From a virus, in the IMG/VR virus record IMGVR_UViG_3300027170_000007, positions 1 through 20,332 of that record: a stretch of DNA of 20,332 bases. One strand, written 5' to 3'. Made by a program: the position numbers and the translations under genes. Shown here piece after piece: positions 1,596 to 19,375 of this stretch; positions within the stretch are counted from its first letter, which is position 1, and each line of letters begins with the position of its first letter. Below the pieces are notes generated by a model. The model was not told the origin of the DNA. It saw nothing but the letters and a program-made list of their open reading frames with translations, and made no database searches.

Positions 1596-1611
1596 TCTGT
1601 TATATAATAGA
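1596..1611 (-). promoter_or_regulatory. Palindromic late-gene element, copy A
   Basis: On the coding (minus) strand this reads TCTATTATATAACAGA, within a 17-base block TTCTATTATATAACAGA shared exactly with copies B and D. It is a 16-bp inverted repeat with one mismatched pair (TCT.TTATATAA.AGA). It ends 10 bases before the ATG at 1585 and lies 34 bases downstream of a rho-independent terminator. A new promoter is expected at such a place. A further small inverted repeat (CTGAAT...ATTCAG, 1618-1637) lies just upstream of it. Confidence 0.6.
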
Positions 1612-1645
1612 AATAAGCTGAATTTATTTGTATTCAGTTAGTAAT

Positions 1646-1674
1646 AAAAAGAAAAAGGTGAGCCTAAGCCCACC
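1646..1674 (-). terminator. Rho-independent terminator after the 193-aa gene
   Basis: On the minus strand the transcript would fold GGTGGGC-TTAG-GCTCACC, a 7-bp stem with one G-U pair and a 4-base loop (1674-1657), directly followed by TTTTTCTTTTT (1656-1646). It lies 28 bases downstream of the stop codon of the 193-aa gene. On the plus strand the same stem has an A-C mismatch and no T tail, so the direction is clear. It would end transcripts coming from the capsid genes. Confidence 0.85.
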
Positions 1675-1701
1675 CTAATCAAGAAATATATAAGAAAACT
1701 A

Positions 1702-2283
1702 CTAAGATGTAACTATTGTTCCCATTGTAAATGCTCCATTATCAAATGGTACTGTAGTGTAATCTGCTACCATTGGGAACGGTTCAGCTTCCATACCATC
1801 GAAGGTAAGAGTGTAACCATTTTTATCTCCCCAAGCAGCACCACTATCCATAGTACCTGCATTTAATTCCATTCCGTTTACTCTACCAAGACAAACGATA
1901 ACATCGTGTCCGTTAGCTAACTGTTGGTTTAATTGAGCAAAGATAACTACTTTTGTAGCTCCTAGCAATTTAACCTGATTTTGATCTTCTTTGGTAAGTC
2001 TGTTAAATAATACTTGAACTGTTGGTGTATAGTAGATTGTTCCGTTTTCTCTACTTCCAACAATTGTGTCCGTTAAAGAAGCTACACCTAAAGGCATAGC
2101 ATATCTGTAAAGAACATTAGAACCCATTTCAATATCAGTAACTTCTCCTGAAGCTTCAACTATTCCTGTTCCGTCAATTGGTGCTGTAAATTGGTCGTAA
2201 ACTCCGAAATAAATAAATTTCACGCCCCCCGAGATGCGATTGCAATCGAGCCCTCTTCCTTTTGTAAGTGCTGTACAAGCCAT
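1702..2283 (-). CDS. Phage structural protein, tail-tube candidate (193 aa)
   Basis: The product begins MACTALTKGRGLDCNR and has long beta-type stretches. An example is the segment from RENGTIYYTPTVQVLFNRLT (residues about 78-97) to GYTLTFDGMEAEPFP (about 156-170). Proteins with this start and this GYxLTFDGMEA motif occur in many Bacteroidota phages and prophages next to the major capsid gene. The terminal beta strand followed by an E-x-x-P segment resembles tail-tube proteins, but I cannot exclude a head protein. It is the last gene before the terminator at 1646-1674 and is separated from the capsid gene by 66 bases, which contain a purine-rich imperfect hairpin. The start at 2283 is preceded by AAAATAAAATAAAATG on the coding strand, an A-rich initiation region suited to strong expression in Bacteroidota. 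Confidence 0.6.
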   Translation of the reverse strand: MACTALTKGRGLDCNRISGGVKFIYFGVYDQFTAPIDGTGIVEASGEVTDIEMGSNVLYRYAMPLGVASLTDTIVGSRENGTIYYTPTVQVLFNRLTKEDQNQVKLLGATKVVIFAQLNQQLANGHDVIVCLGRVNGMELNAGTMDSGAAWGDKNGYTLTFDGMEAEPFPMVADYTTVPFDNGAFTMGTIVTS

Positions 2284-2349
2284 TTTATTTTATTTTTTTA
2301 GGTTAAGGGAGGAAGGGTTTTACCCCCTCCTTCCGTATTATTTATTTTA

Positions 2350-3255
2350 TTATGATTGTCTTACGATATCAGCTCCTGTTCCTGTTTGAACACCTGCTGA
2401 GTAACGAGCAACTAATCTCATATTATCAGAACCTGTAAACGCCATATCGATTAAATCTATACGAGTTTTATCGCTTAGCAAATCAGTCCCAAAAAATAAA
2501 TTAGATTTTTGTGCTATCACTAATTCATTTTCGTTCATTCCATTGCAAACGGCGATTTTGTAGCCTTCAAACATTGGCACATAATCTCCATTCATATTGT
2601 AAGCATTAACATATCCTAAAGTCGATACTGCTGAAATGTAGTATTGGTAAGTTCTTTGACTCATATAAATATGTAAGTCTTCTTTTCCTAAAACTGCACT
2701 AGGTATTGAAGCAACTGCTCCTTGTAATTCTGCAATAATTGTAGCTGCTGTATAAGCTCCTGCTGCTGCATCTTGAACAACTGTTGCATCAACTCCCGGT
2801 AATAAAAGCCCTGTACCTGCTCCTAAGAAACCATTGAATTTCCCTGCTACAGCAGTTCCACTCCAAATTGAATTTTCTGTTGCTTCTGCTATAATTTCTC
2901 CCATATAAGAGATAACATAGTCATCAAAAGATGCAGGTGGTGGTGCTCCTGCTCCTGCTCTCATTTGTAATGCTTCCCAAGAGTCAAGTAAAGTTTTCTT
3001 GCATAATTCAAGATTAACTTGTAGGTTCTTAGGTTCTAAGACCTTTTCTGTAAGCGCAAGAGTTCCTGCAGAAGTAAAGTCGCACGTAGCATCTGCCACT
3101 GAACTGACAGTATTATTCATTGCCTGTATGTTACTTTTAAATTTGATATTTTCTATCATTGTTAGATAATCTAACGAGTTTGATGCTTTTAAAGCTGCTG
3201 AGATGTAAAATCCTGCTGCTTTTCCTGCAAAGTTTGATGTTGTAGTAAACGCCAT
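2350..3255 (-). CDS. Major capsid protein, HK97-fold type (301 aa)
   Basis: The length fits a small HK97-fold capsid protein without a long delta domain. An N-terminal helix-rich arm (about residues 5-60) is followed by an extended E-loop-like Ala/Gly-rich part. A spine helix candidate with CKKTLLDSWEALQ (about 84-97) comes next. Then comes a P-domain/A-domain pattern that includes the dipping segment LHIYMSQRTYQYYISAV and, further on, the typical VPMFEGYKIAVCNGM, where a target peptide is followed by the G-Y-K-I-x strand. The C-terminus ends in IRLDLID-like and MRLVARYSAGVQ strands. It directly follows the scaffold-like gene (24-base gap). It has an unusually A-rich translation leader, as expected for the most abundant virion protein. 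Assignment is by motif pattern, size and position. Confidence 0.85.
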   Translation of the reverse strand: MAFTTTSNFAGKAAGFYISAALKASNSLDYLTMIENIKFKSNIQAMNNTVSSVADATCDFTSAGTLALTEKVLEPKNLQVNLELCKKTLLDSWEALQMRAGAGAPPPASFDDYVISYMGEIIAEATENSIWSGTAVAGKFNGFLGAGTGLLLPGVDATVVQDAAAGAYTAATIIAELQGAVASIPSAVLGKEDLHIYMSQRTYQYYISAVSTLGYVNAYNMNGDYVPMFEGYKIAVCNGMNENELVIAQKSNLFFGTDLLSDKTRIDLIDMAFTGSDNMRLVARYSAGVQTGTGADIVRQS

Positions 3256-3275
3256 TTTTTTGTTTTTTTTTAATT
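3256..3275 (-). promoter_or_regulatory. A-rich translation initiation region of the capsid gene
   Basis: The 20 bases before the ATG at 3255 are nearly all A on the coding strand, with one C interrupting two A runs. There is no Shine-Dalgarno core (GGAGG or AGGA). Bacteroidota ribosomes are known to start on A-rich, Shine-Dalgarno-free leaders. The leader fits high expression of the capsid protein and points to that host phylum. Confidence 0.5.
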
Positions 3276-3279
3276 AATA

Positions 3280-3984
3280 TTATTTATTTAAATCGTGTAA
3301 GAATTTCTCTCTTCTTGTCATTTTGTTGTATTCTGCTCTTGAAACAGGTTTTCTGTCTGAACTGAATTTATTAGTATCTAAAGGAGCTGAAGCAGGTTGT
3401 GCTGCTAACTCAGTTTTAAGTTTTTCGTTTTCAGCTCTTAACTTAGTTAATTCATCTTCTGCTGAGAATTCAACTACTTCTGTAGTTTTTATAGACTTAG
3501 GAGTTGTTCCTCTTTCTTCAGTTTCTTCAGACATTTCTTCGACTTCATCATCACCTCCAACTTTTCCTTCTTTAAGTTTAGCTACAGCGATTTCTAAGTT
3601 TTCAATTCTTTTCTCCATACCTTTCCAATCAGCTACATCAGCTTCTTCTTCATAGTCTTTTTTATCTTCTTCTTCTTCAGCTAGTTCTTCTGAAGCTTCA
3701 ACTTCTTCTTCAACTACTTCTTCAGTTTCAGTTTCCATAACTTCAGCAACAATACCTTCTTCTTCAACTCTAAAAGTAACTCCTGTGTCAGTCTTGTAAG
3801 TTCCGATTGGTAATAAAATTGTAGTACCATCTTCAGTTAATACTGAGATGTCTACTCCTGCTTCTAATTCCTCAGCAGTTGAAACGAAAATAGTTCCATC
3901 TTCTGATTTTGCTTGCCACTCTAATTTGATTGTTGCTTCTTTGTCAAGTCCAAGTGCTACTAAAATTTGCGTCTTTAAATCCAT
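3280..3984 (-). CDS. Acidic coiled-coil protein, capsid scaffold candidate (234 aa)
   Basis: The N-terminal 85 residues look like a small beta domain (ATIKLEWQAKSEDGTIFVST; GTYKTDTGVTFRVEEEG). A very acidic, Glu-rich stretch (about 85-120) follows. Next come a predicted coiled coil (MEKRIENLEIAVAKLKEG, about 123-140), a second coiled-coil segment (ELTKLRAENEKLKTELAAQ, about 178-196), and a basic C-terminus with KPVSRAEYNKMTRREKFLHD. Acidic middle, coiled coils and a basic capsid-binding end are the usual design of phage scaffolding proteins. The position between prohead protease and major capsid gene is the classic scaffold position. A copy of the palindromic element (4001-4016) lies in the 55-base gap before it, so it probably heads a scaffold-capsid transcript. 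Confidence 0.7.
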   Translation of the reverse strand: MDLKTQILVALGLDKEATIKLEWQAKSEDGTIFVSTAEELEAGVDISVLTEDGTTILLPIGTYKTDTGVTFRVEEEGIVAEVMETETEEVVEEEVEASEELAEEEEDKKDYEEEADVADWKGMEKRIENLEIAVAKLKEGKVGGDDEVEEMSEETEERGTTPKSIKTTEVVEFSAEDELTKLRAENEKLKTELAAQPASAPLDTNKFSSDRKPVSRAEYNKMTRREKFLHDLNK

Positions 3985-4000
3985 AGTTTAATTTTTAAGT

Positions 4001-4016
4001 TCTGTTATATAATAGA
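4001..4016 (-). promoter_or_regulatory. Palindromic late-gene element, copy B
   Basis: Coding strand TCTATTATATAACAGA, identical over 16 bases (17 with the leading T) to copies A and D. It lies in the 55-base gap between the protease stop and the scaffold start, 16 bases before the ATG at 3984. The spacer reads ACTTAAAAATTAAACT, again A-rich without Shine-Dalgarno. Confidence 0.6.
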
Positions 4017-4039
4017 ATAGTTATTTATTTGTTTGATTT

Positions 4040-5119
4040 TTACAATAATGATATTAATTTCTTTAAGATTTTAGCAGCTTCTGTAGTTGCAGGTATTTTA
4101 ACATCTAAGTCTTTTGCAGCTTTTTCTAACTTATCTGTTTTCTTTTCTAAACTAGTTTTTAATTTTGAAGCATTACCTCTGTTCTTATCTAACCTTGTTT
4201 CAAGTTCATCTATGCTCTTCAAAGTATTATCACGATAAAATATTGCGTCATTTGCTTCTCTTTCTGCTGTATCATAGGCATCTTGTGCCTTTTCAAGTTT
4301 ATTTTGAAGGTCAAAGTATTTTCCCTCAGCCTTTTCATAAGCAGCATTCTTCTTATCAACTTCTTTATACGCTTTTAATTCATCTTTTTCATAACCCTTA
4401 ATAGCTTTGACATCTCTTGTTAAATCAGGAATTAAATCTTTAGCCTGTTGTATAAGTTTTTCTACATCATCAGTTAGTCCTAGTTCAATTCTATTAGCTT
4501 TGCTCATTGTAGTAATTTTACCTTCCCTTACTAATTCATTAAAAGCACTTAGTATTTGTTCTGTAGTTGGTTGTTTTTTATTCATTTGTTCAAATTTATT
4601 AGTAAAGTAGCCTTCAATTGAAAGACCTTTTAATTCTCCTTCTTTTATCTTAGACCAAATTTCATCATTTGAAATAGATAGCTTAACCATCCAAGTTCCC
4701 ACAGGAAGTGAATATCCGTAAAGTGTAGACTTGTCTAACTTAGTATCTTCTATAATCCAACTTTCAACTGTAAGTATTCCTGAAACTCTATCTTGATGTT
4801 GGTATGTAGCTTTATGGTGATTGTTATGTTTCAAGTATAATTCAGAAGCTTTCCTAACTGTATCAGGACTAAAGTAAACATAGTAATCACTATCCGTATT
4901 TGGGTCGTGTCTGAATATTTGTTTGTTCGGAATAAGTGCAGGACTAACTAGCATTCTTTTCTCCTCATCTACTTTTGCAAATGTTAAGTTATTCTTTTCT
5001 TTCCCAAAGTAAACAAAGTCTTGTTCAATCGCAGGTGAAGTTACTAAACTGATAGCATCAATAGCTAGTTCTTGACTATCGTCTGCAATTACTAATTCTA
5101 CTATTTTAGTTGGTGTCAT
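4040..5119 (-). CDS. Prohead protease, XkdF-like (Peptidase S78_2 type), with C-terminal coiled coil (359 aa)
   Basis: Residues about 1-175 match my memory of the XkdF-like putative phage serine protease family. The pattern is LVSPALIPNKQIFR (57-70), YFSPDTVRKASELYLK (82-97), YQHQD with His108, the SWIIED and GTWMVKLSI segments, and GLSIEGYF with Ser167. His108 and Ser167 are the likely catalytic pair. This enzyme would process scaffold and capsid proteins during head maturation. Residues about 205-359 form a separate Lys/Glu-rich coiled coil that opens with MSKANRIELGL and ends with AKDLDVKIP. That same frame of motifs is seen in the 163-aa protein encoded just upstream. The second part could be an intrinsic scaffold. 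Met205 (ATG at 4507) could even act as an internal start, as in lambda C/Nu3. The gene ends 23 bases before element B and starts 8 bases after the 163-aa gene. Confidence 0.8.
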   Translation of the reverse strand: MTPTKIVELVIADDSQELAIDAISLVTSPAIEQDFVYFGKEKNNLTFAKVDEEKRMLVSPALIPNKQIFRHDPNTDSDYYVYFSPDTVRKASELYLKHNNHHKATYQHQDRVSGILTVESWIIEDTKLDKSTLYGYSLPVGTWMVKLSISNDEIWSKIKEGELKGLSIEGYFTNKFEQMNKKQPTTEQILSAFNELVREGKITTMSKANRIELGLTDDVEKLIQQAKDLIPDLTRDVKAIKGYEKDELKAYKEVDKKNAAYEKAEGKYFDLQNKLEKAQDAYDTAEREANDAIFYRDNTLKSIDELETRLDKNRGNASKLKTSLEKKTDKLEKAAKDLDVKIPATTEAAKILKKLISLL

Positions 5120-5127
5120 ATTATTTA

Positions 5128-5619
5128 TTAAAATATATTATAAAGTTTCTCAATAGCTTGATTTATTTTTTGACTTTCTTTTATAAAATCTTTTGCAGAT
5201 AGTAATTTATTTCCTAAATCTGTTTTAGGTATTTCTACACCTAAATCTTTAGCATCTTTTTCTATACTTTCACCCATTTTAATTACCTGCTCCCATTTTC
5301 CTTTTTGCGTCTTATAATCTTGCTGAGTTTTAGACATAGCTTTTATTAAAGAGCTAGAAGTTCCTTCCCAATTATCTAATGACTTTTCAAATAGTTTTTT
5401 AAAATCATCAATAGCACCCAATTCAACTCTTTCAACTTTACTCAAGTTATATTCCTTTAATTCTTTTTCGTATTGCTCGTAAGTCTTTCCTAATGGTGTT
5501 GGTCTCATTTTATTATAGTTTTTTTTATTAGCTTTTTCACAGGCTTCTTTGGAGTCGTATTTACATTCTCCTGTTTTACCCCATTTATATTTTCCGTTTT
5601 CACATTTTGTGCAAGGCAT
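5128..5619 (-). CDS. Cys-rich N-terminus plus coiled coil, head-module protein (163 aa)
   Basis: The first 30 residues hold four cysteines (3, 6, 19, 27) in a small Lys-rich segment, MPCTKCENGKYKWG onward, which may bind a metal. Similar openings are common in flavobacterial phage proteins of unknown function. Residues about 59-163 are helical. They run from LSKVERVELGAIDDFKKL through a coiled coil to AKDLGVEIPKTDLGNKLL. This order of motifs (SK..R.ELG..DD..KL, then AKDL.V.IP) is repeated in the C-terminal region of the neighbouring prohead protease, so the two share a domain by duplication. A role in head assembly, perhaps as scaffold or protease partner, is inferred from that and from position. 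A diverged copy of the palindromic element lies 9 bases before its start. Confidence 0.6.
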   Translation of the reverse strand: MPCTKCENGKYKWGKTGECKYDSKEACEKANKKNYNKMRPTPLGKTYEQYEKELKEYNLSKVERVELGAIDDFKKLFEKSLDNWEGTSSSLIKAMSKTQQDYKTQKGKWEQVIKMGESIEKDAKDLGVEIPKTDLGNKLLSAKDFIKESQKINQAIEKLYNIF

Positions 5620-5628
5620 ATTATTCTG

Positions 5629-5644
5629 TTTGGTATATAATAGA
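5629..5644 (-). promoter_or_regulatory. Palindromic late-gene element, copy C (diverged)
   Basis: Coding strand TCTATTATATACCAAA. It keeps the 11-base core TCTATTATATA of all copies, but the right half is altered. The ACAGA half-site seen in copies A, B and D occurs four bases later (TATATACCAAACAGA). It lies in the 47-base gap between the tape measure stop and the ATG at 5619, at the boundary from tail to head genes. Confidence 0.5.
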
Positions 5645-5666
5645 TATATAGTTAATATATTTGATT

Positions 5667-7238
5667 TTAGATTGTAGCCCTTCTTCTAATATTGGCTAAT
5701 TGGTTTTGACTATTTGTCATTTCATCTGTAACTACATAAGCTTTAGTTGGTTCAGGTTCTACTCCTCCTGATATATCAAAAGCTCCTGACATCATTTGTG
5801 GTGCAGGTGGTGCAGGTGCTGACATTCCTCCTCCTCCTCCTCCTCCTCCTCCTCCTCCTACATCTGTTTGCATAATTGTATTTACATTTGCTAGACCTGT
5901 AGCAATTACTGCTGCTGCTGCTATAAAGTTTAATGGTGGAGGTGCTGATGACATTGCTTTATTTGCTCCAACAAAAGTGTCAATAACAGCTGAAGCTATA
6001 GCTAACTCTTTATTCTCACCTGCCAACCCTATTAACGCAGAAGCAAGATTTCCATACGCTTCTATTTGGTCATCTACAGTAGCTTTAACAACTAAAGCCT
6101 TTTGCTTTTCATATTGCTTAGTAATAGCTGTAGTGTCCATTCCTGACTTCCTAGCCATCTCTTTCTTTAACTCATAAGCAGTTTTAAGTTCTTCTAATTC
6201 CCTTTGTAGACCTGAAAGTCCTTCTGCTCTTACTTCATTTTGAGTTTCTAAAAGTTCTTTTTCTAAAGCTACTGCATTAGTCTTTTGTTCTGATAACTGC
6301 CCTGTAATAGTTTCTTCAAGTTCAAGCATTCTTATTTTTTCTTCTTGTAATGCTATATAGTTTTCTTCACTTGCGTTTATATTATACTGTTGCTGTGCTG
6401 CTTCTATACCTATTTGAACTTGCTCTCTTTGAAGTTCTTGCTGTTCTGCAAGTATTTCATTTAACTTATTATTAGCTTCTATTCTTTCTGCAAAAGTCTT
6501 AGTTTCATCATCTCTTATTTGTCTTTGTATCTCAGCATCTTTTAAGTACTGAGCGTTTAACTTAGCAAACTCTACTGCTGCTCTGTTTGCTGCTTTCTGA
6601 GTTTCTGTTATTGCTGCTGCATTGTCTAAGACTTTTTTAGAATAATCAACAATTGCGTCAGCTGCATCAGTAACTATATCAACTGTTTTATCAAATGAAT
6701 TATCTATTCCTGTTGCTACATCTACCATTTCCTTACCTGCTAGTTTTGCAAATTCTGCTGCTTCTCCGAAATTTCCTTTAAATAAAGATGTTAAAGCACT
6801 TCCTACATAACCGAAAGTATCTAAAAGACTATTAAACCTTTCTATAAGGTTATTCTGTATCATATCACCAAAAGCCTTTAAAGACTCTTGTGGGTTTTCA
6901 AATATATCTTTAAAGAAACCTGTAAAAGCTCCAATATTATCATTTAGAAAATTAAACAAGTCGTTAAAAGCAATATTTAAAGCCGTCATTCCTGTTTCAA
7001 AAGCGTCTAAAACTTTTTGGTTGTTTCTAAAGACATCCATTAGTTTTACTAATAAAGCAACAACAAGACCTATCCCTGCTGCTTTTAATGCTGAACCTAC
7101 ACCTTTAATAGCTGTTCCAATTCCTTTAAAACCTTTCTGACCTTTTTTAGCAGCTCCTTCAAGTTTTTCAGTTTGTTCTACTACTTTACCAATATCTGAC
7201 TTTACATTTAATACAATTTCTTCTTCTCCTTGTGCCAT
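5667..7238 (-). CDS. Tail tape measure protein (523 aa)
   Basis: This protein would set tail length and be ejected with the DNA. Visible features: an N-terminal charged segment; a Gly/Ala/Lys-rich amphipathic and hydrophobic stretch (GTAIKGVGSALKAAGIGLVV, 41-60, then ALLVKLMDVF to 70); long helical, Gln/Glu/Ala-rich coiled coil (about 170-390); a second hydrophobic stretch (about 437-456, with NFIAAAAVIATGLANVNTI); an eleven-glycine run at 461-471; and a Pro-rich linker with a C-terminal TKAYVVTDEMTNSQNQL. These are the hallmarks of Bacteroidota phage tape measures. At about 1.5 angstrom per residue the length would suggest a tail somewhat under 80 nm. It is separated from the tail assembly chaperone gene by several genes, whereas in most siphoviruses the two are adjacent. 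It starts 10 bases after the fibre-like gene. Confidence 0.8.
   Translation of the reverse strand: MAQGEEEIVLNVKSDIGKVVEQTEKLEGAAKKGQKGFKGIGTAIKGVGSALKAAGIGLVVALLVKLMDVFRNNQKVLDAFETGMTALNIAFNDLFNFLNDNIGAFTGFFKDIFENPQESLKAFGDMIQNNLIERFNSLLDTFGYVGSALTSLFKGNFGEAAEFAKLAGKEMVDVATGIDNSFDKTVDIVTDAADAIVDYSKKVLDNAAAITETQKAANRAAVEFAKLNAQYLKDAEIQRQIRDDETKTFAERIEANNKLNEILAEQQELQREQVQIGIEAAQQQYNINASEENYIALQEEKIRMLELEETITGQLSEQKTNAVALEKELLETQNEVRAEGLSGLQRELEELKTAYELKKEMARKSGMDTTAITKQYEKQKALVVKATVDDQIEAYGNLASALIGLAGENKELAIASAVIDTFVGANKAMSSAPPPLNFIAAAAVIATGLANVNTIMQTDVGGGGGGGGGGGMSAPAPPAPQMMSGAFDISGGVEPEPTKAYVVTDEMTNSQNQLANIRRRATI
5826..5858 (-). repeat. (GGA)11 trinucleotide repeat in the tape measure gene
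   Basis: Eleven perfect GGA codons in a row (TCC on the plus strand) encode Gly461-471. All eleven use the same codon, so this is a true DNA microsatellite and not merely a glycine-rich linker. Changes in unit number would keep the frame and alter the length of the linker before the C-terminal domain. Confidence 0.95.
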
Positions 7239-7248
7239 AATTTTATTT

Positions 7249-8100: not shown

Positions 8101-11100
8101 TATGGTATAAGTATAAATTCAACTATTGCTAAGTCGTTAGGTTTGTATTCTATTTTATTCACTCTAAATTCTCTGTTCTTTATCATTACCGTATCAAAGA
8201 AATTGAATGTGTTGATGTCAGCAGGACTTAGATTTACTTTTAAAGTCATTATTCTAGTATCAGGATTGTATAGCTCATAATAATAAGGCGACCAATATGT
8301 ATTAAAAAGGTTATTCATAGCTGTATTCCCAAGTCCCGGCATATATTGACATTCTCCAAAATTAAAATCTACTGTTGAAGATGAAACACTTGGCACTTCT
8401 GATAAGTGGGTAAATTGTAAATATTCATCTTTTATTCCATTACCCACTCCATTTTGTGCAGGAATATAATAAGTACAACTTGAAAGCGTTTTTATTCCGT
8501 TATCATACATTATTCTAGGTGCGTTTTCAAAACCTTCACTAGTTTGGTCATCAGCATTATAAGAATAGATAGCAGGAGTAATTAAATCAGGGAATTGCGA
8601 CATTAAAGGTTTAGGTACTGTAGCTGCAAAAGGTTCTGCAACTATTTCATCTTTTCCTGTTAATATTGTAAAAGTTGAAGCATCAAACTCTTTACTTCCG
8701 TATAAATGACCACTTACTGAAGTTTTATATTGATTAAAAGCATAATCATCATCATCTTCTACAAACTTAAAAATTGTTTCTTTATTTAAGTCTGTCAGGG
8801 GTTTAAGTTTTATTTCTGTAACGTCTATCTTGTCCGTCCAATCGTGTGCGATACCTCTTGAAGCTAAACTTAAATCTGAAGTTGTGCCACTTGCTGTATT
8901 ATTAATAAAAACATCTGCATAAGGTTCAAATAAAATATTATTAGGGTTATCTTTATCAGGAATTGAAACTAGGTTAAACATTGTTATAATTCCTTTTAGG
9001 AAATCCCATTGCGTTAATTCTCCTCGTAAACTTTGTAAAATAGCGTTTTTAATAGCCCCCTGCATATTTATAGACATATTAATCATTACAGGAAAAGGAG
9101 CTCCTACTCCATTACCTGCCCAAGGATAGTTATTTATTTTAGCTGAACCTGCAATATTACTTCTCCATTGTAATTCTAATTTATCTCCTGCGTTCATTGT
9201 TTGATTAAGAGTTCCACTATGATAACCATTTCTACCAAGATTTTGATTATCTCCGTTAATTAAAATATCAGGGGAAAAATAATAACCACTACCTTGGTTA
9301 GTAATTGTAACTGAAGTAATAGGTCCGGGAAAAGTTCCGTTTGCTATACACGTAAACCCTGTACCATTTCCATTAAGTGTAATAGTAGGAGCTGTATTAT
9401 AATAACCACCATAACTTACACCCATACCAAAAACATTCCCGTGGGGGTAACCAACAATAGCTGTAGTCAATACAGCAGTACCAAATGCATCTTGTGATTG
9501 GTAAGCTAGTGGCACAGGAGTTCCACCTGAAGGTGTGTATAACCATCTAAATTCTAATATATTATCAACTGAAGAAAATGTATTAACCCATCCATAAAAT
9601 TCATAGTTGGCATTTGATTGCCCTGCAGGGCTAGTAAATACATAAGTACCATCATTATAGCCAAAATCTGCGGAAAATGAGTTAGTAGTTAAGGGTACAT
9701 TTGTGTAAGTTGTAGTAACCAAAGTATCAGGTCCTGAAGTCTCAAACAGACCTGAAGCTGAAGTATTAATAGAATTAGGGTTTTCATCTCCACCCCAATT
9801 GAAATCCATATAAAGCTTGTCAAAATCAAAACTACCACCTGTAGCAATAGATGTATTAAAAAAATCACTTTCATAAGTAAAAGGGCTTTCATCAAATATT
9901 CTGTCAATTAAATACTTAATATTTATAAAAGGTCTAAAGGAGCTTTCCAAATTAGGCAATATAGGAAATCCTGTGGAAGCGTCTGCTGTGTAATTATGCG
10001 ACCAATCTACAAAAGGGAATTTTATAGTGTTATTATCATCTCTGAACCCTGAAGCATTAGCGTTAAGAAATGTAGGTCCTGTTCCTCCATTATTCCAACT
10101 CCTTGTTATATTTGTTTTAGTGTAGTCCATTTCTAATTCAACAAAAGAAACGTCTGCTAAAGTCTTAGTATCAAGAACATCTTTTAATGCTACTACCTCA
10201 GAATAAAGATTTACATTGTAGCTTATTTCGCCTTCTTTGTCTGATATATCTATAAGTCTAAGATAACCTTCAAATAATAAAAAACCATCTTGCTTTAAAA
10301 CGCATTGTGTCTTTACGTAAGGATTAAAATTAAGACCTGTATCTGTTCTTGTTATTTCAAATATATTATCAAATATTAGATTGTTTCTTTTTGTAGCAGG
10401 TAAATTAAAAGCTTTTGAGTATGACTGTACTTTCTCAGCTACATTTTTAAAGTCATCAACACTTAATGTTAAAGGTATATCTTCATCTTCATATAAATCG
10501 CAAATTACTTGCCCGTCTTCTAAGTCTGTGTAAATTAGTGTTGGTGTTACCCCTTGTTCTGAAACACTTATTTTACTTATACTGATAGTGTCATTAACAT
10601 AGTTGAGATAACTTATAATGATTGTATCATTTGTAGTTGCAGCTGTCCAAGTAAAAATAATCTGAGGATCTGATGCTGAGTGCCACGGTTGTGAAATCAG
10701 ACTAGTGCCATTAAAAGCACCTGTAAATACGTTCCCTGCTGCTGATGTTTGGTCTAAATCTATCACCATTTCATAAGTCGTTCCTACAACTAAGTTAGAA
10801 AGCCTTTGATACACTCCACTTAATGAACCTCCAATTGCGGACTCTAATACCAAATTTCCTGAAGTTTCTATAGGTAAGTCAGGAGTTCCTGCTGATGTAC
10901 TTCTAAAACGATACCAAGTATTAAAATACGAAGGGGGTGCGTTAGTCAAAGTATCTATTATAACACCCCCTGAAGCACTATCGTAACTACTTGAAGTGTT
11001 TATTTGAGTAAAGTTAAAACCATCTACAACAAACTCATTTGCAAATGAAGCTATTGAATTGTATTGACCATTATAGCTTTGTGGGTATAATATTAATTGT

Positions 11101-11108
11101 ACACTCAT
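8100..11108 (-). CDS. Large tail / baseplate hub-like protein (1002 aa)
   Basis: The largest gene in the window. Residues about 1-190 look like a carbohydrate-binding-type beta sandwich (WYRFRSTSAG; GTTYEMVIDLD; DTIIISYLN). Then comes a segment (about 200-300) with DLYEDEDIPLTLSVDDFKN and YSKAFNLPATKRNN. I know this from conserved large tail proteins of Bacteroidota phages. Residues about 555-620 carry an inserted repeat of the type found in secreted and tail proteins (GVSYGGYYNTAPTITLNGNG and NQGSGYYFSPDILING). The C-terminal third (about 680-1002) is again of the conserved tail type and ends in FRVNKIEYKPNDLAIVEF. A baseplate or hub role is inferred from size and position between the 470-aa protein and the fibre. 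It overlaps both neighbours by one base (TAATG), so translation is probably coupled. Confidence 0.6.
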   Translation of the reverse strand: MSVQLILYPQSYNGQYNSIASFANEFVVDGFNFTQINTSSSYDSASGGVIIDTLTNAPPSYFNTWYRFRSTSAGTPDLPIETSGNLVLESAIGGSLSGVYQRLSNLVVGTTYEMVIDLDQTSAAGNVFTGAFNGTSLISQPWHSASDPQIIFTWTAATTNDTIIISYLNYVNDTISISKISVSEQGVTPTLIYTDLEDGQVICDLYEDEDIPLTLSVDDFKNVAEKVQSYSKAFNLPATKRNNLIFDNIFEITRTDTGLNFNPYVKTQCVLKQDGFLLFEGYLRLIDISDKEGEISYNVNLYSEVVALKDVLDTKTLADVSFVELEMDYTKTNITRSWNNGGTGPTFLNANASGFRDDNNTIKFPFVDWSHNYTADASTGFPILPNLESSFRPFINIKYLIDRIFDESPFTYESDFFNTSIATGGSFDFDKLYMDFNWGGDENPNSINTSASGLFETSGPDTLVTTTYTNVPLTTNSFSADFGYNDGTYVFTSPAGQSNANYEFYGWVNTFSSVDNILEFRWLYTPSGGTPVPLAYQSQDAFGTAVLTTAIVGYPHGNVFGMGVSYGGYYNTAPTITLNGNGTGFTCIANGTFPGPITSVTITNQGSGYYFSPDILINGDNQNLGRNGYHSGTLNQTMNAGDKLELQWRSNIAGSAKINNYPWAGNGVGAPFPVMINMSINMQGAIKNAILQSLRGELTQWDFLKGIITMFNLVSIPDKDNPNNILFEPYADVFINNTASGTTSDLSLASRGIAHDWTDKIDVTEIKLKPLTDLNKETIFKFVEDDDDYAFNQYKTSVSGHLYGSKEFDASTFTILTGKDEIVAEPFAATVPKPLMSQFPDLITPAIYSYNADDQTSEGFENAPRIMYDNGIKTLSSCTYYIPAQNGVGNGIKDEYLQFTHLSEVPSVSSSTVDFNFGECQYMPGLGNTAMNNLFNTYWSPYYYELYNPDTRIMTLKVNLSPADINTFNFFDTVMIKNREFRVNKIEYKPNDLAIVEFILIP

Positions 11109-12520
11109 TATACTGATTGTGTTCTTAGTGTTTTACTCTTTTCTACTTCAAATGAATACTGAATTAACTTGTCATTAGCTACTGTCTTTCTTGTAAAACT
11201 TGAAGTCGTAAGTCTTGCAGGTGTTACGTAAGTATTTAATAAAGCGTTTGGATTGTCCGTTTGGAAGCCATCTAAGATATAAACTTCAGGACTGTTTATT
11301 AATTCTTCAAACATTGTATTATAATCTGCACTTACAAAGTCAGTGTTCATTTTAATTTTCTCAGTAGCATTAACTCTGAAAGATTTTTTACCTCCTTTAT
11401 AGCCATCAGATCTGTAAGTGCTTCCATTCCAAGTTCCTGCTAATTGATTGTATGTAGAACCTTTTGTTGATATGCTTCTTGTAGATTTCTTATTGAATGT
11501 AAAGTAATCCCAAGCACCATATTGATTTAACCAACAAAGTCTGATAGGTTCAAATCCTTTACTATCAGGACAATTTATATCAATTGTGTAAGTCTTTGTC
11601 ATTTGACTACCACTATTTGAAGCATAAAGGTGAATTTTACCACCCTGTATAGTTCCTGCTGAAATTAAATTTTGAAAAGTTGTACTCCAATTTTGTAAAT
11701 TAGCAGGGAAACAACCAACAAACAATATTTGCTTATTAGCTTTACCGTCATAAGTATTATAAGCACCATTAGAGGAAGTTAAATCTATACTATCACCACC
11801 TATAATACTACCAATACTATTTTTAAAAATGAATATTACACTAGTTATTTCATCAAGTACATCTTGTATTTGAGGTTGTATAAAAGCCATTGTTCCATAA
11901 TCTTCTAAGTTAGCTGATTGGACAAAAGGAGCATTTGTTAAAAATCTTTGAGTTGCAACATCTAGCAAAAAATCATCTCTCCAATCCCACCCAAAGTTCT
12001 GATTTGCACCTCCACCATATTCTAATGCATCTGTTTCTTTTAAGTACCCATTAAACAACAGGAAATCGTCTGTATTTACTGAATTACCTGAAGCGTTACT
12101 AACAACATTAGGGTAGTCAGTATCTGCTCCTAAGTATTCAATCTGAAATCGTATTGCTAGATACCTAACAGTATTAAAATTCCTAGAGTAGTTATCAATC
12201 AAATGAATAGGAAATGGCACATCACTAGCAAGTTCGTCTTTATATTTAGCAGTATCAAAAGCCATATTATCTGCTTTAACATAATTTTCTACAACATTAC
12301 TGAAGTCAAACATTCCAACCCCTTTATTATTAGGTGTAGTCTTAAATGTTGCTACCAAATCACTTGCTGTAGGTGGTTGTCCTGAGCTTATACGAACCTG
12401 TGCTACAAACTTTACTTTTAATTGAGTTGCTACTATAGTTGCATTTGAAACTGCAAATATTATATCTTGACCTACAGGAAGTACATTATATTTGGGTTTT
12501 TGTTCTATTATATTTGGCAT
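11108..12520 (-). CDS. Tail / baseplate structural protein (470 aa)
   Basis: A soluble, beta-rich protein without signal peptide or membrane segment. It opens with QKPKYNVLPVGQDIIFAVSN and later contains the conserved-looking FEPIRLCWLNQYGAWDYFTF (about residues 327-346). A further stretch, KTYTIDINCPDSKGF, lies just before it. The phrase LCWLNQYGAWDYFTF occurs in tail proteins of flavobacterial phages and prophages that are usually annotated only as structural. It lies directly before the 1002-aa hub-like gene with a one-base overlap and 11 bases after the gp10-like gene. It is therefore likely to be a distal tail or baseplate component that works with the hub protein. I do not know its precise role. 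Confidence 0.6.
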   Translation of the reverse strand: MPNIIEQKPKYNVLPVGQDIIFAVSNATIVATQLKVKFVAQVRISSGQPPTASDLVATFKTTPNNKGVGMFDFSNVVENYVKADNMAFDTAKYKDELASDVPFPIHLIDNYSRNFNTVRYLAIRFQIEYLGADTDYPNVVSNASGNSVNTDDFLLFNGYLKETDALEYGGGANQNFGWDWRDDFLLDVATQRFLTNAPFVQSANLEDYGTMAFIQPQIQDVLDEITSVIFIFKNSIGSIIGGDSIDLTSSNGAYNTYDGKANKQILFVGCFPANLQNWSTTFQNLISAGTIQGGKIHLYASNSGSQMTKTYTIDINCPDSKGFEPIRLCWLNQYGAWDYFTFNKKSTRSISTKGSTYNQLAGTWNGSTYRSDGYKGGKKSFRVNATEKIKMNTDFVSADYNTMFEELINSPEVYILDGFQTDNPNALLNTYVTPARLTTSSFTRKTVANDKLIQYSFEVEKSKTLRTQSV

Positions 12521-12531
12521 AATTTATTTTT

Positions 12532-13074
12532 CTAGCTAATTATTTTTTGGTCTTTCAAACTATCTATTATATCTTCTTTAATTCCTTCTAGGAACTTACC
12601 TCTAAATTGTTGCATTCCTAACATTAAAGGTCTTTGGAAGAAACTTATTCCTTGTATTCCTTTCTTACCAATACTTCTAGCAATTAAAAACTTTATGCTT
12701 TTTCTTGACATAAACTTTCCCTTTTCATCTCTTGGAGCTATTCCTTTTTTTACTACCCATTTATCAAGTGCCTTAGTAGGTGGCTGTGAATGTCCTTTAG
12801 CTTTTGTATAACGAAAAGGACTTACAAGAGTCTTGCCCTTATAATCTGTATACTTTCTTTCTTTTTCTGTTCCTGAAACGCCCTTATCTACAAACTTACC
12901 ATAAGAGTCCATCTTGAATTTTATAGTTACTAAACCCTTTTGAGCTGTAGCAAAAAAACTAATAGACTTTTCTAATGCTCCGCCCTTATCAGCTGAAGCT
13001 AAGTTTTCTTTTGCTTGATTTACTACTTGCCTTCCAAAGCTATCAAGATATCTTTTAAGAGCGTCTAATTTCAT
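12532..13074 (-). CDS. HK97 gp10-like tail-completion protein (180 aa)
   Basis: The pattern is that of the HK97 gp10-like family. It has an N-terminal helix with RYLDSFGRQVVNQAKENLAS (8-27), a short strand, then YGKFVDKGVSG (about 58-68), where the G-x-FVDKGV motif is typical. A basic loop with SPFRYTKAKGHSQPP and a C-terminal helix with GISFFQRPLMLGMQQFRG complete it. Such proteins act at the head-tail joint or as tail-completion factors. The product is very basic. It overlaps the 149-aa gene by one base and lies in the row that follows the tail assembly chaperone. The usual family length is about 110-180 aa, so this is a full-length member. Confidence 0.65.
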   Translation of the reverse strand: MKLDALKRYLDSFGRQVVNQAKENLASADKGGALEKSISFFATAQKGLVTIKFKMDSYGKFVDKGVSGTEKERKYTDYKGKTLVSPFRYTKAKGHSQPPTKALDKWVVKKGIAPRDEKGKFMSRKSIKFLIARSIGKKGIQGISFFQRPLMLGMQQFRGKFLEGIKEDIIDSLKDQKIIS

Positions 13075-13523
13075 TATACTAACCCTGCAAAGACTTCTAC
13101 TTGAACATCAGTTGATGCTGAAGGTCTAACCTCTACAGTAACTAAATCCTCTAATGTAGGAAAGTTAGGAGTAGTGTCTGCTTCAGCAATCATTACTTCT
13201 TCTGCTTGAAATAATAGATGAGAACCTCCTGCTCTTACAGTTACTTGATAGTTTGTAGCTGCTGTTACAAAAGCTACTTTCATATCTTGGTCTGCACTCA
13301 AGTTAGTTATTCTCAAGTACTTACAGTTCTCTACATCTAAAGCACCATCAGCTCCATAAGGAGTTGAATTAAATACTGCTACTGTTGTAGTCTGTGAATG
13401 AGTACAAGTTAGTATTCTTTCAAATACATCTACTATACCTGTAGTTGTAATTGTGTTTGTTGTTCCTCTTACTGAGCCATTTAAGGTAACTCCTTCTGAG
13501 ATCGTTGTGATTAAGTTTGCCAT
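13074..13523 (-). CDS. Small beta-rich structural protein (149 aa)
   Basis: No family is recognised. The product is short, acidic and beta-type, with a Thr/Gly-rich N-terminus (TISEGVTLNGSVRGTTNTIT), a middle with YLRITNLSADQDMKVAFVT, and a C-terminus with LVTVEVRPSASTDVQVEVF that reads like a pair of outer strands of a sandwich. No signal peptide or membrane helix is visible. It lies between the terminator-like 181-aa protein and the gp10-like gene, overlapping the latter by one base, so a minor tail or neck component is most likely. The start at 13523 is preceded by an A/T-rich, Shine-Dalgarno-free leader. Confidence 0.55.
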   Translation of the reverse strand: MANLITTISEGVTLNGSVRGTTNTITTTGIVDVFERILTCTHSQTTTVAVFNSTPYGADGALDVENCKYLRITNLSADQDMKVAFVTAATNYQVTVRAGGSHLLFQAEEVMIAEADTTPNFPTLEDLVTVEVRPSASTDVQVEVFAGLV

Positions 13524-13531
13524 ATTAATTT

Positions 13532-13606
13532 TTATATTTTTATTGTTATTTTAAATTTCTTCCACCCTATGTGAACTATTAGTCTTCCTATCTTAAATTT
13601 TAGCAT
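13532..13606 (-). CDS. Possible very small basic peptide gene (24 aa)
   Basis: The ATG at 13606 shares its A with the TAA of the preceding 181-aa gene (TAATG), the same coupled junction used elsewhere in this tail cluster. The frame stays open for 24 codons and fills most of the 82-base gap. The peptide (MLKFKIGRLIVHIGWKKFKI and four more residues) is basic and amphipathic, with alternating hydrophobic residues. No family is known to me. It may be chance in AT-rich DNA; the coupling and the otherwise tight packing of the region are the only support. Confidence 0.35.
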   Translation of the reverse strand: MLKFKIGRLIVHIGWKKFKITIKI

Positions 13607-14151
13607 TAGTAACCTGCACCTCTAGCATTAACAGGAATATCACAAGTTTGAAAATCGTTCTGAACTAATACGCCTATATTAAATACATATCCACAACACA
13701 AATTGTCAAATCTTTCCTGAAACGGTTCTATTGTAAATTGGTCTTGCGTAAAATAGATAGGTTCGTTTATATCATCAACACCCCCCAAAGACTGCCTTAC
13801 ACTATGTCTAAGCATACCTATTATATCTGTACAAATGTGTAATGTTTGATTGAATACTTCCTGCTCGTTATTTTCAGTATTTACAAGTTTAGTTAAAAGC
13901 TCGTGCTGTCTAGTTTGCCAATCTGACTTTTCAGAAACCATATCCATAATAAACACTTGAAAGTTGTATGTCAATTGACTATCACCTGTAGTTACTGAAG
14001 TGGGGTTTACGTGCATTAAAGGAAACTTCTCCATCTTCTCAAGGTTGAGGTCATATATGTCTCCTACTGAAGTTGTGCTAATTTGGTCGTGATACTCACC
14101 AAGTCTAAGTAAAGTGTTTACTACATTATTATATGTCTTATTATTAACCAT
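13606..14151 (-). CDS. Tail terminator / tail-completion candidate (181 aa)
   Basis: An alpha/beta protein. An N-terminal helix (TYNNVVNTLLRLGEYHDQIS) is followed by strands around FPLMHVNPTS and QLTYNFQVFIMDMVSEKSDW, a long central helix (about 90-118), and terminal strands around YVFNIGVLVQNDF. The order helix, strand with P-L-x-H-V, then strand-D-helix resembles tail terminator proteins of the lambda gpU type that cap the tail tube before joining to the head. Its start overlaps the frameshifted end of the tail assembly chaperone by eight bases, which ties it to tail assembly. The call is structural guesswork from the sequence pattern. A role as another neck protein is possible. Confidence 0.5.
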   Translation of the reverse strand: MVNNKTYNNVVNTLLRLGEYHDQISTTSVGDIYDLNLEKMEKFPLMHVNPTSVTTGDSQLTYNFQVFIMDMVSEKSDWQTRQHELLTKLVNTENNEQEVFNQTLHICTDIIGMLRHSVRQSLGGVDDINEPIYFTQDQFTIEPFQERFDNLCCGYVFNIGVLVQNDFQTCDIPVNARGAGY

Positions 14152-14392
14152 TTCTATTTACTTTGTTTTGTGAGTTTAAGTCTGTTTCATAACTTAACCA
14201 AGTCAAGCATTCTAACAATCCTAAATTCGTTATTCTTTCTAAGTTTACTATTTCAGCATTACACAATCTATAAAAAACCCCAAACCACGACCACTTCTCT
14301 GCAAAGCTTTCTGTTGCTATTGCGTCTTCATTCCCTTCAGCTGCTCCATCAAATATAATGGCAAAATCTCCGATAATTCTTTCCCTAAAACA
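14144..14392 (-). CDS. -1 frame extension of the tail assembly chaperone (GT-like second domain, 82 codons)
   Basis: No ATG-started ORF of useful size covers 14152-14316 on the minus strand, yet the -1 frame relative to the chaperone is open from the T9 run to the TAA at 14146-14144. It encodes a protein-like sequence with FAEKWSWFGVFYRLCNAEIV, then LERITNLGLLECLTWLSYE. The FAEKW.W...IY.L..GDI..(F/L)E.VT.L.L.ECL pattern is the one I know from second-frame tail assembly chaperone parts in Bacteroidota phages. A ribosome that slips -1 at T_TTT_TTT (14398-14392) after Phe175 would make a 257-aa fusion. It ends overlapping the start of the 181-aa gene by eight bases. Confidence 0.75.
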   Translation of the reverse strand, partial: CFRERIIGDFAIIFDGAAEGNEDAIATESFAEKWSWFGVFYRLCNAEIVNLERITNLGLLECLTWLSYETDLNSQNKVNRNG

Positions 14393-14916
14393 AAAAAAAA
14401 CCGTAAAGCACTTTGTACCTGTTCTGCTGACATCTTTTTCATTTCTTCCGTCCTAAGCCGAATATCTCCATCATAAGCATCAATAACATAAATACCATTC
14501 TTCTTTTCTTTTATCGGTCTATACAGAACAGCCATTATTTCAGGTAAATGCTTTTCTATTCCACCTTTGATAAAGGTCTCGATATCGGCATATTCCCCGA
14601 GAGTAATTGAGTCCAAATCAGGGTGAAAACCATACTCAACACCATCTATTTCAATTATCCTTTTTAGCTTTGTATCTTGCTCTTGTTGTAGCTTTGCTAT
14701 CCTACTCATTATTACTGCTACATCTGATAAAGCTAATTCCTTTACTAACTGCTTAGGAATATTAGATAAAGCCGTTATTGTTTGCTCTGCTTCTTCTGTT
14801 TTACTAGCTGTTTCTAAATCAACAAGTTGCAACCATTTTTCAAGAGTTACATCTTCCCAACTACTAATCAATTTGAACTCTTTTACCTTACCTTTCTTTT
14901 TGACTTTTACTTTCAT
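14317..14916 (-). CDS. Tail assembly chaperone, zero-frame product (gpG-like, 199 aa)
   Basis: The product has a basic N-terminus (MKVKVKKKGKVKEF), a helical body with SWEDVTLEKWLQLVDLET (about 19-36), and a middle with DLDSITLGEYADIETFI. The SW.dVt..kw..l and SITLGEYADIE motifs are characteristic of tail assembly chaperones of Bacteroidota phages, which coat the tape measure protein during tail assembly. Codons 173-175 are three TTT in a T9 run. The zero frame continues only to the TAG at 14319-14317, while the -1 frame continues as a conserved-looking domain. This gives the G/GT pair known from lambda. The gene follows the large terminase after 32 bases that carry element D. That element touches the start codon, so its mRNA could be leaderless. 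Confidence 0.75.
   Translation of the reverse strand: MKVKVKKKGKVKEFKLISSWEDVTLEKWLQLVDLETASKTEEAEQTITALSNIPKQLVKELALSDVAVIMSRIAKLQQEQDTKLKRIIEIDGVEYGFHPDLDSITLGEYADIETFIKGGIEKHLPEIMAVLYRPIKEKKNGIYVIDAYDGDIRLRTEEMKKMSAEQVQSALRFFFVLGKELSEILPLYLMEQLKGMKTQ
14392..14400 (-). other. Slippery T9 site for -1 frameshifting
   Basis: The coding strand reads CGG TTT TTT TTT GTT in frame. The T_TTT_TTT heptamer allows both tRNAs to re-pair after a -1 slip. No strong downstream hairpin or pseudoknot is evident to me. A ten-T run would fuse the two frames directly, so the exact run length matters. Confidence 0.7.
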
Positions 14917-14931
14917 CTGTTATATAATAGA
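14916..14931 (-). promoter_or_regulatory. Palindromic late-gene element, copy D
   Basis: Coding strand TCTATTATATAACAGA. Its last A is the first base of the ATG at 14916, so element and start codon overlap. It lies in the 32-base gap after the terminase large subunit. If the TATATA part is a -10 element, transcription would start at or next to the ATG and the chaperone mRNA would have no leader. Confidence 0.6.
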
Positions 14932-14948
14932 AATTTGTTGTTTTTAGT

Positions 14949-16259
14949 TTACTGCACATAATACTTACCAAAGTTGCTGTCTATCTCATAATACATTCTC
15001 ATAGCTAAAGCATCAGCATAATCAGGAGAACGCCCTAAAATAGACTTGACTGTATCTTTTGGAATAATTTGTAGTTTGTTATCTTTATCAGCGTCCTTAG
15101 TTCTTACTTGTTCCAATTCTTCCGTTATGTAATTCTTAATATTTACATCAGAACAACTAACACCTATTTGTCCTTTGTTTATTTGGTCTGCTAATTTGTA
15201 ATAACATTGTGTTTTTAGGTTCTGATAATTCTCACCTTTTAAAGCTCTTGCGTTATTGGTAAAGCCTTGACATCTTAGATAATCTTTTACACCTCCACCA
15301 ACTCCGTCCTCATCAACTATAATATTTCTTAGATTAACTCCATTCTCTTGTTGTAGTTTCTTGATTTCGTCTACAACCTCATTTATAGCCGATTTAAGCA
15401 ATGTTCTTATGTATCTAATGTGTAACCCTTGCCAAAGCATTATAACCGTCTTATCGCTTCCAAATCGTGCGACATCACAAGTTATATATTTATCACCTTC
15501 TATTCCTTTTTGACTGAACATACTCATTATAGAATTATAATCTATTAAACTATCAGCGGTTGCGTCATACTCCCAATTACCAAATAGAAGTCTTTGCTTA
15601 CTTAGTTCATCTAATTGTGATAGCTGAGTTTCATAGTGTTTAGATATATAGGTGTTATCTATAACTAAAGATTGGATAAACTTTCTGTAGTGCTTTATTG
15701 TATTTTCCTGTGCAGGTCTGTAATACTCTGAATAAACCCAATTCTTTGCAGGGTTACAAGTCATTAGTAATTTAGGAATTAAATTGTTTTCATCAAGTTT
15801 GTATCTAAGTCTTGAAGCTACAACATTCTTGGCTTTCTCGGTTATTTGATTTGCTTCATCAATAAATGCTCCTGTTATTTCAAGTGAACCTAAGCTATCA
15901 AAGTTTCTGTCTGATGGGTATAAGAACAAGTCTTTTAAAATTATCTCAGAACCATTGTAAAAGGTTATTACATTACTTGAGCCGTTAAAGGTGTAATCCT
16001 TTATAGCTTTTAAATTCCAAGCAGTACATACTTCAAAAAATGTATTTAGTGTAGTCTTTTTTAATGCATCTAATTTAGACCTACCCATAAGATACCTAGT
16101 CTTAGGATATTGAAGGCACATTAAGATTAAATAACTTACACCAACCCAAGACTTACCTCCACCTGCTGCACCTCCAAATAGAACTTCTTTAGTGCTATCG
16201 TCAAATAGATATTTCAAACACTCCTTTTGCTTAGGTGTAAATTCAGGACTAATCTCCAA
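14949..16259 (-). CDS. terL: Terminase large subunit (436 aa)
   Basis: This is the ATPase and nuclease that packages DNA into the prohead. It shows Walker A GGAAGGGKS at 29-37 and Walker B ITGAFIDEA with Asp134-Glu135. The motif III region is LLMTCNPAKNW (164-174). The C-terminal RNase H-like nuclease carries likely metal ligands at Asp262 (CDVARFGSDKT), Asp316 or Asp318 (IIVDEDGVGGG) and Asp413 or Asp416 (SPDYADALAM). The length is normal for a compact TerL. It overlaps the small-subunit gene by 11 bases. The ATG at 16259 gives a start just before the conserved F-T-P-K-Q-K-E segment. All key residues are present, so the enzyme should be active. Confidence 0.95.
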   Translation of the reverse strand: MEISPEFTPKQKECLKYLFDDSTKEVLFGGAAGGGKSWVGVSYLILMCLQYPKTRYLMGRSKLDALKKTTLNTFFEVCTAWNLKAIKDYTFNGSSNVITFYNGSEIILKDLFLYPSDRNFDSLGSLEITGAFIDEANQITEKAKNVVASRLRYKLDENNLIPKLLMTCNPAKNWVYSEYYRPAQENTIKHYRKFIQSLVIDNTYISKHYETQLSQLDELSKQRLLFGNWEYDATADSLIDYNSIMSMFSQKGIEGDKYITCDVARFGSDKTVIMLWQGLHIRYIRTLLKSAINEVVDEIKKLQQENGVNLRNIIVDEDGVGGGVKDYLRCQGFTNNARALKGENYQNLKTQCYYKLADQINKGQIGVSCSDVNIKNYITEELEQVRTKDADKDNKLQIIPKDTVKSILGRSPDYADALAMRMYYEIDSNFGKYYVQ

Positions 16260-16602
16260 GATTTATATTAATTTTAATTCTTTCATCACCTGAAGTAAGG
16301 TCTATTTCTTGTTTCTCATTATAACCACGCTTACGACCTCTTGTTCTTAAAAAAAATGTAGTGGCTGTAGTGTTACCTTCTTTTATTTGTTTCTTTAGAC
16401 TTGTTTCAGCAAAGTCAATAAACTTACTATCAATTTCATCTACAGACTTTTTGTATTCTTCATCACTATTATACCAAGCATAGTGTCTGCTTCTTGTTAT
16501 GTCTGCTTTCTCACAGGCTTCTGTTACTATACCTAATGATACTTCTAGTGCAGCTAGTAGTTTCTTTTTACCCTCCTGTGTCCTCTTTTGTTCTTTTTCC
16601 AT
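16249..16602 (-). CDS. terS: Terminase small subunit (117 aa)
   Basis: The N-terminal part is basic and helical, with LLAALEVSLGIVTEACEKAD then ITRSRHYAWYNSDEEYKKSV (about 15-54). This is the helix-turn-helix type used by many terminase small subunits to bind the packaging site. The C-terminal half has a helix (FIDFAETSLKKQIKEGNTTA) followed by TTFFLRTRGRKRGYNEKQE, the arrangement seen in Bacteroidota phage TerS proteins, and ends with a short beta segment (IKININL) that may contact the large subunit. It lies directly before and overlaps terL. It is the first late gene: a core copy of the palindromic element fills the 15-base gap after the NinB-like gene and reaches to two bases from the ATG. 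Confidence 0.85.
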   Translation of the reverse strand: MEKEQKRTQEGKKKLLAALEVSLGIVTEACEKADITRSRHYAWYNSDEEYKKSVDEIDSKFIDFAETSLKKQIKEGNTTATTFFLRTRGRKRGYNEKQEIDLTSGDERIKININLGD

Positions 16603-16604
16603 AC

Positions 16605-16615
16605 TATATAATAGA
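16605..16615 (-). promoter_or_regulatory. Late-gene element, copy E (core only)
   Basis: Coding strand ATTTCTATTATATA, which shares 14 bases with copies A and D. The right half (ACAGA) is replaced by GTATG, in which ATG is the terS start codon. Only two bases separate the core from the ATG. It sits exactly at the change from recombination genes to packaging genes. Confidence 0.5.
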
Positions 16616-16617
16616 AA

Positions 16618-19353: not shown

Positions 19354-19375
19354 ACGCCAAACTTAATAAAAAAGT

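Follow-up and report, generated by a model that had tools for sequence, protein, structure and literature searches.

Putative late promoters of two-part structure and a predicted ECF-type sigma factor in a group of marine Bacteroidota phages

Phage ECF sigma factors with late promoters of their own, and late sigma factors split into separate proteins, are already known, the former from phiEco32 and the latter from T4. In the enterobacterial podoviruses phiEco32 and SU10 (Kuravirus), a small ECF factor, sigma-36, is made from a host-type promoter and serves a handful of middle/late promoters with the AT-rich -10 motif tAATGTATAtA (PMC4281155). In T4, a diverged, phage-encoded sigma redirects the host core polymerase to late genes, but domain 2 (gp55) and domain 4 (gp33) reside in different proteins and a sliding clamp is needed (PMC2988020). 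A different strategy is seen in the RinA, ArpU and Ltr late activators, which bind repeats upstream of a late promoter and are not sigma factors (PMC13123087). Neither late promoters in Bacteroidota phages nor the element described here were found reported in the open-access papers searched.

The DNA analysed (the window) is a 20.3-kb virus record, IMGVR_UViG_3300027170_000007, of a Bacteroidota-type phage. Among cultured phages its terminase is closest to that of Flavobacterium phage 11b (54%), while by capsid protein the nearest is Nonlabens phage P12024L (25%). All called late genes lie on the minus strand, together with five copies of a short element. The initial annotation had placed three identical copies of TTCTATTATATAACAGA on the coding (minus) strand at nt 1596-1612, 4001-4017 and 14916-14932, and two further copies of its core, TCTATTATATA, at nt 5634-5644 and 16605-16615, each before a start codon. 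All of these positions proved to be right. Alignment of the element across 157 related loci (1.4 Mb), rather than the five window copies alone, revealed a second conserved box upstream of each core, which had been overlooked. The features are as follows.

16605..16616, minus strand: putative late promoter P1, core of -10 type TTCTATTATATA; terS ATG (16602) 2 nt downstream
16627..16635, minus strand: P1 upstream box CCAAATGAA, within the 3' end of a ninB-like gene
14921..14932, minus strand: putative late promoter P2, core; ATG of the 199-aa gene (14916) 4 nt downstream
14943..14951, minus strand: P2 upstream box TAAACTAAA
5634..5645, minus strand: putative late promoter P3, core ATCTATTATATA, upstream of the 163-aa gene (ATG 5619)
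5656..5664, minus strand: P3 upstream box TCAAATATA, the weakest box
4006..4017, minus strand: putative late promoter P4, core, before the scaffold and capsid genes (ATG 3984)
4028..4036, minus strand: P4 upstream box TCAAACAAA
1601..1612, minus strand: putative late promoter P5, core, upstream of the 160-aa gene (ATG 1585)
1623..1631, minus strand: P5 upstream box ACAAATAAA
1655..1676, minus strand: rho-independent terminator directly upstream of P5, closing the P4 block (scaffold, capsid, 193 aa)

A chance origin of the five sites is excluded. When TTCTATTATATAACAGA was searched with up to 3 mismatches, 7 matches (plus-strand readings included) were found against 0.38 expected, and none of 100 shuffled sequences reached 7. 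A bipartite matrix was also trained on 18 sites taken only from a diverged sub-clade, in which the sigma-like protein SIG (see below) is about 55% identical to that of the window, the window itself being excluded. With this matrix the five sites score 22.6-35.9 and occupy the top ranks, the next best position in the window reaching 10.0 and the highest-scoring of 200 shuffled sequences 17.5.

The structure of the element was examined in 50 dereplicated sites, from which near-duplicates had been removed. These were gathered via core similarity, so that the invariance of the core is partly by construction, but the upstream box was not used in gathering them. The conserved unit is directional and has two parts, TnAA(A/C)(T/C)AAA-N10-TTCTATTATATA, with invariant spacing. 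In the 50 sites the AA and AAA of the upstream box are nearly or fully invariant, the core reads (T/A)TCTATTATAT(A/T), and the spacer is exactly 10 bp long and weakly conserved in sequence; each of the five window boxes is likewise exactly 10 bp from its own core. This bears on the suggestion that the sites form a symmetric operator for a dimeric phage regulator. The 16-mer is indeed an inverted repeat with one mismatched pair, and the three identical window copies present a near-perfect 16-bp dyad, as had been reported. The two half-sites are not both conserved, however: the right arm (AACAGA) is kept neither in the 50 dereplicated sites nor in the 55% sub-clade and varies freely in relatives (ATATG, GTGTATG, CTATG, ACAGATG), and the element is always oriented with the coding strand. 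An asymmetric upstream box at a fixed distance points to the geometry of a sigma-read promoter instead, and a dimer-binding operator is therefore considered very improbable indeed.

The initial annotation also stated that the element does not match the Bacteroidota -7 consensus, and this holds for the conserved form, since CTATTATATA differs from TANNTTTG. A host-type promoter at the late sites was considered and is not supported, matches to TANNTTTG being found elsewhere. A generic sigma-70 scan was uninformative (74 matches vs 77.9 expected).

Across the related loci (1.4 Mb) the core occurs 250 times on the coding strand and 10 times on the other. In 18 long relative records (22.8-31.6 kb), which were read whole, the matrix finds 79 sites, all 79 on the coding strand and none opposite, and all 79 in gaps with none inside genes. 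The sites stand at fixed gene positions, typically five per record, each opening a late block and preceding only its first gene: before terS, the 199-aa gene, the 163/protease genes (which follow the tape measure gene), the scaffold and the 160-aa gene. In some relatives the first site precedes an inserted methyltransferase-type gene ahead of terS. Exact cores number 0 upstream of SIG in 418 kb, compared with 156 downstream in 681 kb; the motif thus stands before late blocks only and is absent from early genes, as in systems of the phiEco32 and T4 kind. The same element accompanies a SIG of only 55% identity, and a blind DNA-pattern scan of IMG/VR returned at least 77 new loci, of which 76, among the matches listed, encode proteins of this phage group; behind the pattern in the single exception there is no open frame. 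The outcomes that had been named as refuting a promoter set (equal frequency inside genes or on the opposite strand, lack of conservation in relatives) were looked for, and all the results favour such a set. A phage-specific late promoter set, confined to one strand, to gaps and to late blocks, and kept in every relative examined, is thus strongly supported, while the dyad and its dimeric protein are not.

The phage group carrying the element is abundant, uncultured and marine, and is known only from contigs. Three of its records of about 28 kb (G001, G009 and G013) carry direct repeats of 127, 123 and 65 nt at their ends, suggesting that these are closed circular assemblies of near 28 kb; their gene order is unusual in that a portal-like gene comes after the tail and capsid genes. 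Two contigs, L199 and L200, lie within MAGs labelled Pseudooceanicola and Euryarchaeota. Since they belong to this phage group, these labels probably reflect binning contamination.

A predicted sigma factor gene is situated at the border between early and late genes, within a small operon.

18459..19004, minus strand: SIG, ECF-like sigma factor of 181 aa and candidate reader of P1-P5
18997..19353, minus strand: 118-aa gene, first of the SIG operon, overlapping SIG
19358..19365, minus strand: host-type -7 element TAAGTTTG; first ATG of the 118-SIG-134 operon (19353) 4 nt downstream

SIG matches the sigma70-ECF model TIGR02937 (E=3e-9 over residues 10-179), at 36.6 bits in the window, which is below the curated cutoff of 42.9, and at 51.4 bits, above it, in the 55% relative from L199; the match is that of a group 4 (ECF) factor with domains 2 and 4. 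The AF2 model, of moderate confidence (pLDDT 70), has two helical domains joined by a disordered linker (87-120) and lacks domain 3, the fold of group 4 factors. Its best PDB matches are ECF sigma factors, namely MtSigL (E 1.8e-3, prob 1.0), RpoE, SigW and SigH, none of them reaching E 0.001, and viral structure models annotated as RpoE-like and sigma-70 match as well. A sequence search of SIG against the PDB gave only designed coiled coils and MraZ and was of no use, and tblastn against cultured phages found no convincing homologue. The operon starts with a conserved host-type TANNTTTG: 95 of 97 relatives have it at a distance of 3-5 nt from the ATG of the 118-aa gene, compared with 31 of 2433 other genes. 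Taken together, profile and model make SIG most likely an ECF-type sigma factor.

That SIG reads the element is inferred from co-occurrence, position and geometry. Bacteroidota hosts possess many ECF sigma factors, and one of these might read the late promoters instead. The phage group nevertheless has an ECF-like gene of its own where early genes give way to late ones, without any site ahead of it, and the pattern retrieved by the blind viral scan belongs to this group (76 of the at least 77 loci, among those listed), so that a host alternative sigma seems quite improbable. SIG could also be a late activator of the RinA/ArpU/Ltr type, the element comprising its binding site and a host promoter. 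It shares the genomic position of the Ltr activators, at the end of the early genes before terS (PMC13123087), and shows a weak match to PHROG_36, 'transcriptional regulator'. Against this, a host TANNTTTG element was not noted at any of the five sites. Ltr proteins have their sites upstream of the promoter, as direct repeats spanning -76 to -32 (PMC13123087), while here there is a lone -33/-10-like unit, and both profile and fold match full-length ECF sigma factors with both domains. The activator reading is accordingly judged unlikely.

The fifth site adds evidence of another kind. A hairpin of terminator type, having a T tract and a stem of variable sequence, is found 50-140 nt before it in the window and in 17 of 17 relative records with a testable junction, compared with 6 of 760 random windows. 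Genes behind a terminator need a promoter, and a function of P5 at the DNA level is therefore favoured. Elsewhere in the P4 block, the gap between the capsid and 193-aa genes contains a G-rich/C-rich inverted repeat without a T tract (nt 2284-2349, GGAAGGAGGGGGTAAAACCCTTCCTCC). In loci with an alternative TerS (MDKRINNGGARKGAGRKSK...), such as L092 at about nt 4530-4560, the stretch from the late promoter to the start codon contains a conserved inverted repeat, GGATTGAATAATCAATC (or CTTGATTAATCAA), possibly a site of TerS autoregulation or of packaging. Near P2, around the end of terL, an antisense TATATTTG-like host promoter candidate recurs (G001, G008, G009, G011, G012), which may simply be a coding constraint of the terL end.

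Because the sites occur only after SIG, SIG has the profile and fold of an ECF factor, its operon has a host-type promoter, and a terminator precedes P5, the most likely reading of the five sites is as late promoters recognized by an ECF sigma of the phage, as with sigma-36 of phiEco32. In the scheme proposed, Bacteroidota-type promoters (TANNTTTG) would serve for transcription of the early genes, the 118-SIG-134 operon among them, by host RNA polymerase with the host primary sigma. SIG would then bind the host core polymerase, its domain 4 reading TnAA(A/C)(T/C)AAA near -33/-25 and its domain 2 reading CTATTATATA near -12/-3. Five late blocks would be switched on in this way: terS-terL (or the methyltransferase gene and terS), tail, protease/163, scaffold-capsid, and 160-90-228-portal. 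Where the core is 2-5 nt before the ATG, the transcript would begin on the start codon or no more than a few nt from it and be leaderless; elsewhere a leader would be present. The start positions are deduced from the layout of the sites. For this scheme as a whole, from host sigma to SIG to two-part promoters and leaderless messages, we estimate a probability of about 0.8.

The distance from core to ATG is bimodal, being 2-5 nt at 55 of 78 sites, 12-34 nt at 23, and 6-11 nt at none; at the terS sites of relatives it is exactly 2 nt in 62 of 64. Leaderless genes have been recognized genome-wide by a -10 element situated about 10-12 bp ahead of the start codon (PMC3160421), and the short-spacing class has its core in this position. 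If the core is a -10 element, this class could be translated only from messages that begin on the AUG or no more than a few nt away, and the late mRNAs concerned are thus predicted to be leaderless. For the 2-nt class the start must fall within about 3 nt of the core. This is tighter than at the sigma-36 promoters of phiEco32, where the motif is 6-8 nt upstream of the start (PMC4281155), and is the main doubt on the scheme. It also counts against the scheme that 87% of Flavobacterium johnsoniae mRNAs have leaders of more than 10 nt (PMC6847099). In that species transcription starts 4-5 nt after the -7 element (PMC6847099), by which rule the SIG operon would be leaderless too.

The same proximity raises the alternative that the element acts in RNA, as a translation initiation signal or processing site beside the start codon; it is very often 2-4 nt from the ATG, and Bacteroidota lack Shine-Dalgarno sequences (PMC6847099). 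Such a signal would not readily explain copies at 12-34 nt, a rigid spacer of 10 nt of free sequence, restriction to the first gene of each block, or a copy (P5) directly behind a terminator, and an RNA-level role is in our judgement improbable.

A parallel to the proposed late promoters exists in a cultured phage. Phages P12024L and P12024S (Inhavirus), for which no published promoter analysis was found in the open-access papers searched, resemble the window group in having an ECF-like gene before terL and an AAA(C/T)AAA box followed by a -10-like element and then ATG. In P12024L the gene is gp35, annotated with a sigma-70 region 2 and matching ECF models, just before terL. Seven gene blocks open with an AAA(C/T)AAA-type box, a spacer, a CGTTAATA-type element and an ATG a few nt on, and in IMG/VR relatives (sigma 47-67% identical) the orthologous genes that follow the sigma gene are arranged in the same way. 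The late-promoter plan therefore recurs with a different -10 element. Unlike the window group, the -10 is CGTTAATA rather than CTATTATATA, the box spacing is off by about 2 nt, and the sigma shows only weak similarity to SIG (hhalign 66%, N-terminal only). Upstream of gp04, gp07 and gp44 of P12024L (L418), the opposite strand has a -7-like element of host type (for example TATATTTG) that overlies or borders the upstream box of the late promoters, an arrangement in which host-read and phage-read promoters would stand back to back. Cultured flavophages compared by terminase or host and without a close SIG relative (Flavobacterium 11b, Cellulophaga phi10:1, Polaribacter P12002L, Riemerella RAP44, Flavobacterium 6H) have no such set, both element types being absent.

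A broader reading is that a late programme (terminase, tail, head protease) and its sigma operon are expressed from leaderless mRNAs, their start fixed at the AUG by where the promoter lies, within a host phylum that lacks Shine-Dalgarno initiation and whose own mRNAs mostly have leaders, and that the same plan, with a changed -10, operates in a second, distantly related marine flavophage genus. We consider the odds of this to be about even. Leaderless late structural genes behind phage sigma promoters were not found described in the open-access papers searched, and the prediction is directly testable in the cultured Nonlabens phage P12024L. The scheme would provide a regulatory map for the phage group, with host promoters for the early genes, a single phage sigma, about five late promoters and one conserved terminator. 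The two natural sigma/promoter pairs, CTATTATATA and CGTTAATA, would permit study of how ECF -10 specificity changes while the upstream box is kept, and are possible orthogonal promoters for Bacteroidota genetics.

Among described systems, the SIG scheme is like that of sigma-36 in phiEco32 and SU10 in its small phage ECF factor, host-type promoter and handful of late promoters, and CTATTATATA resembles the phiEco32 -10 motif in make-up (PMC4281155). It differs in belonging to marine Bacteroidota phages and in its extra fixed upstream box, five late-only sites and ATG beside the core. With T4 it would share the redirection of host core polymerase to late genes by a phage sigma (PMC2988020), although SIG appears to hold both domains in a single protein.
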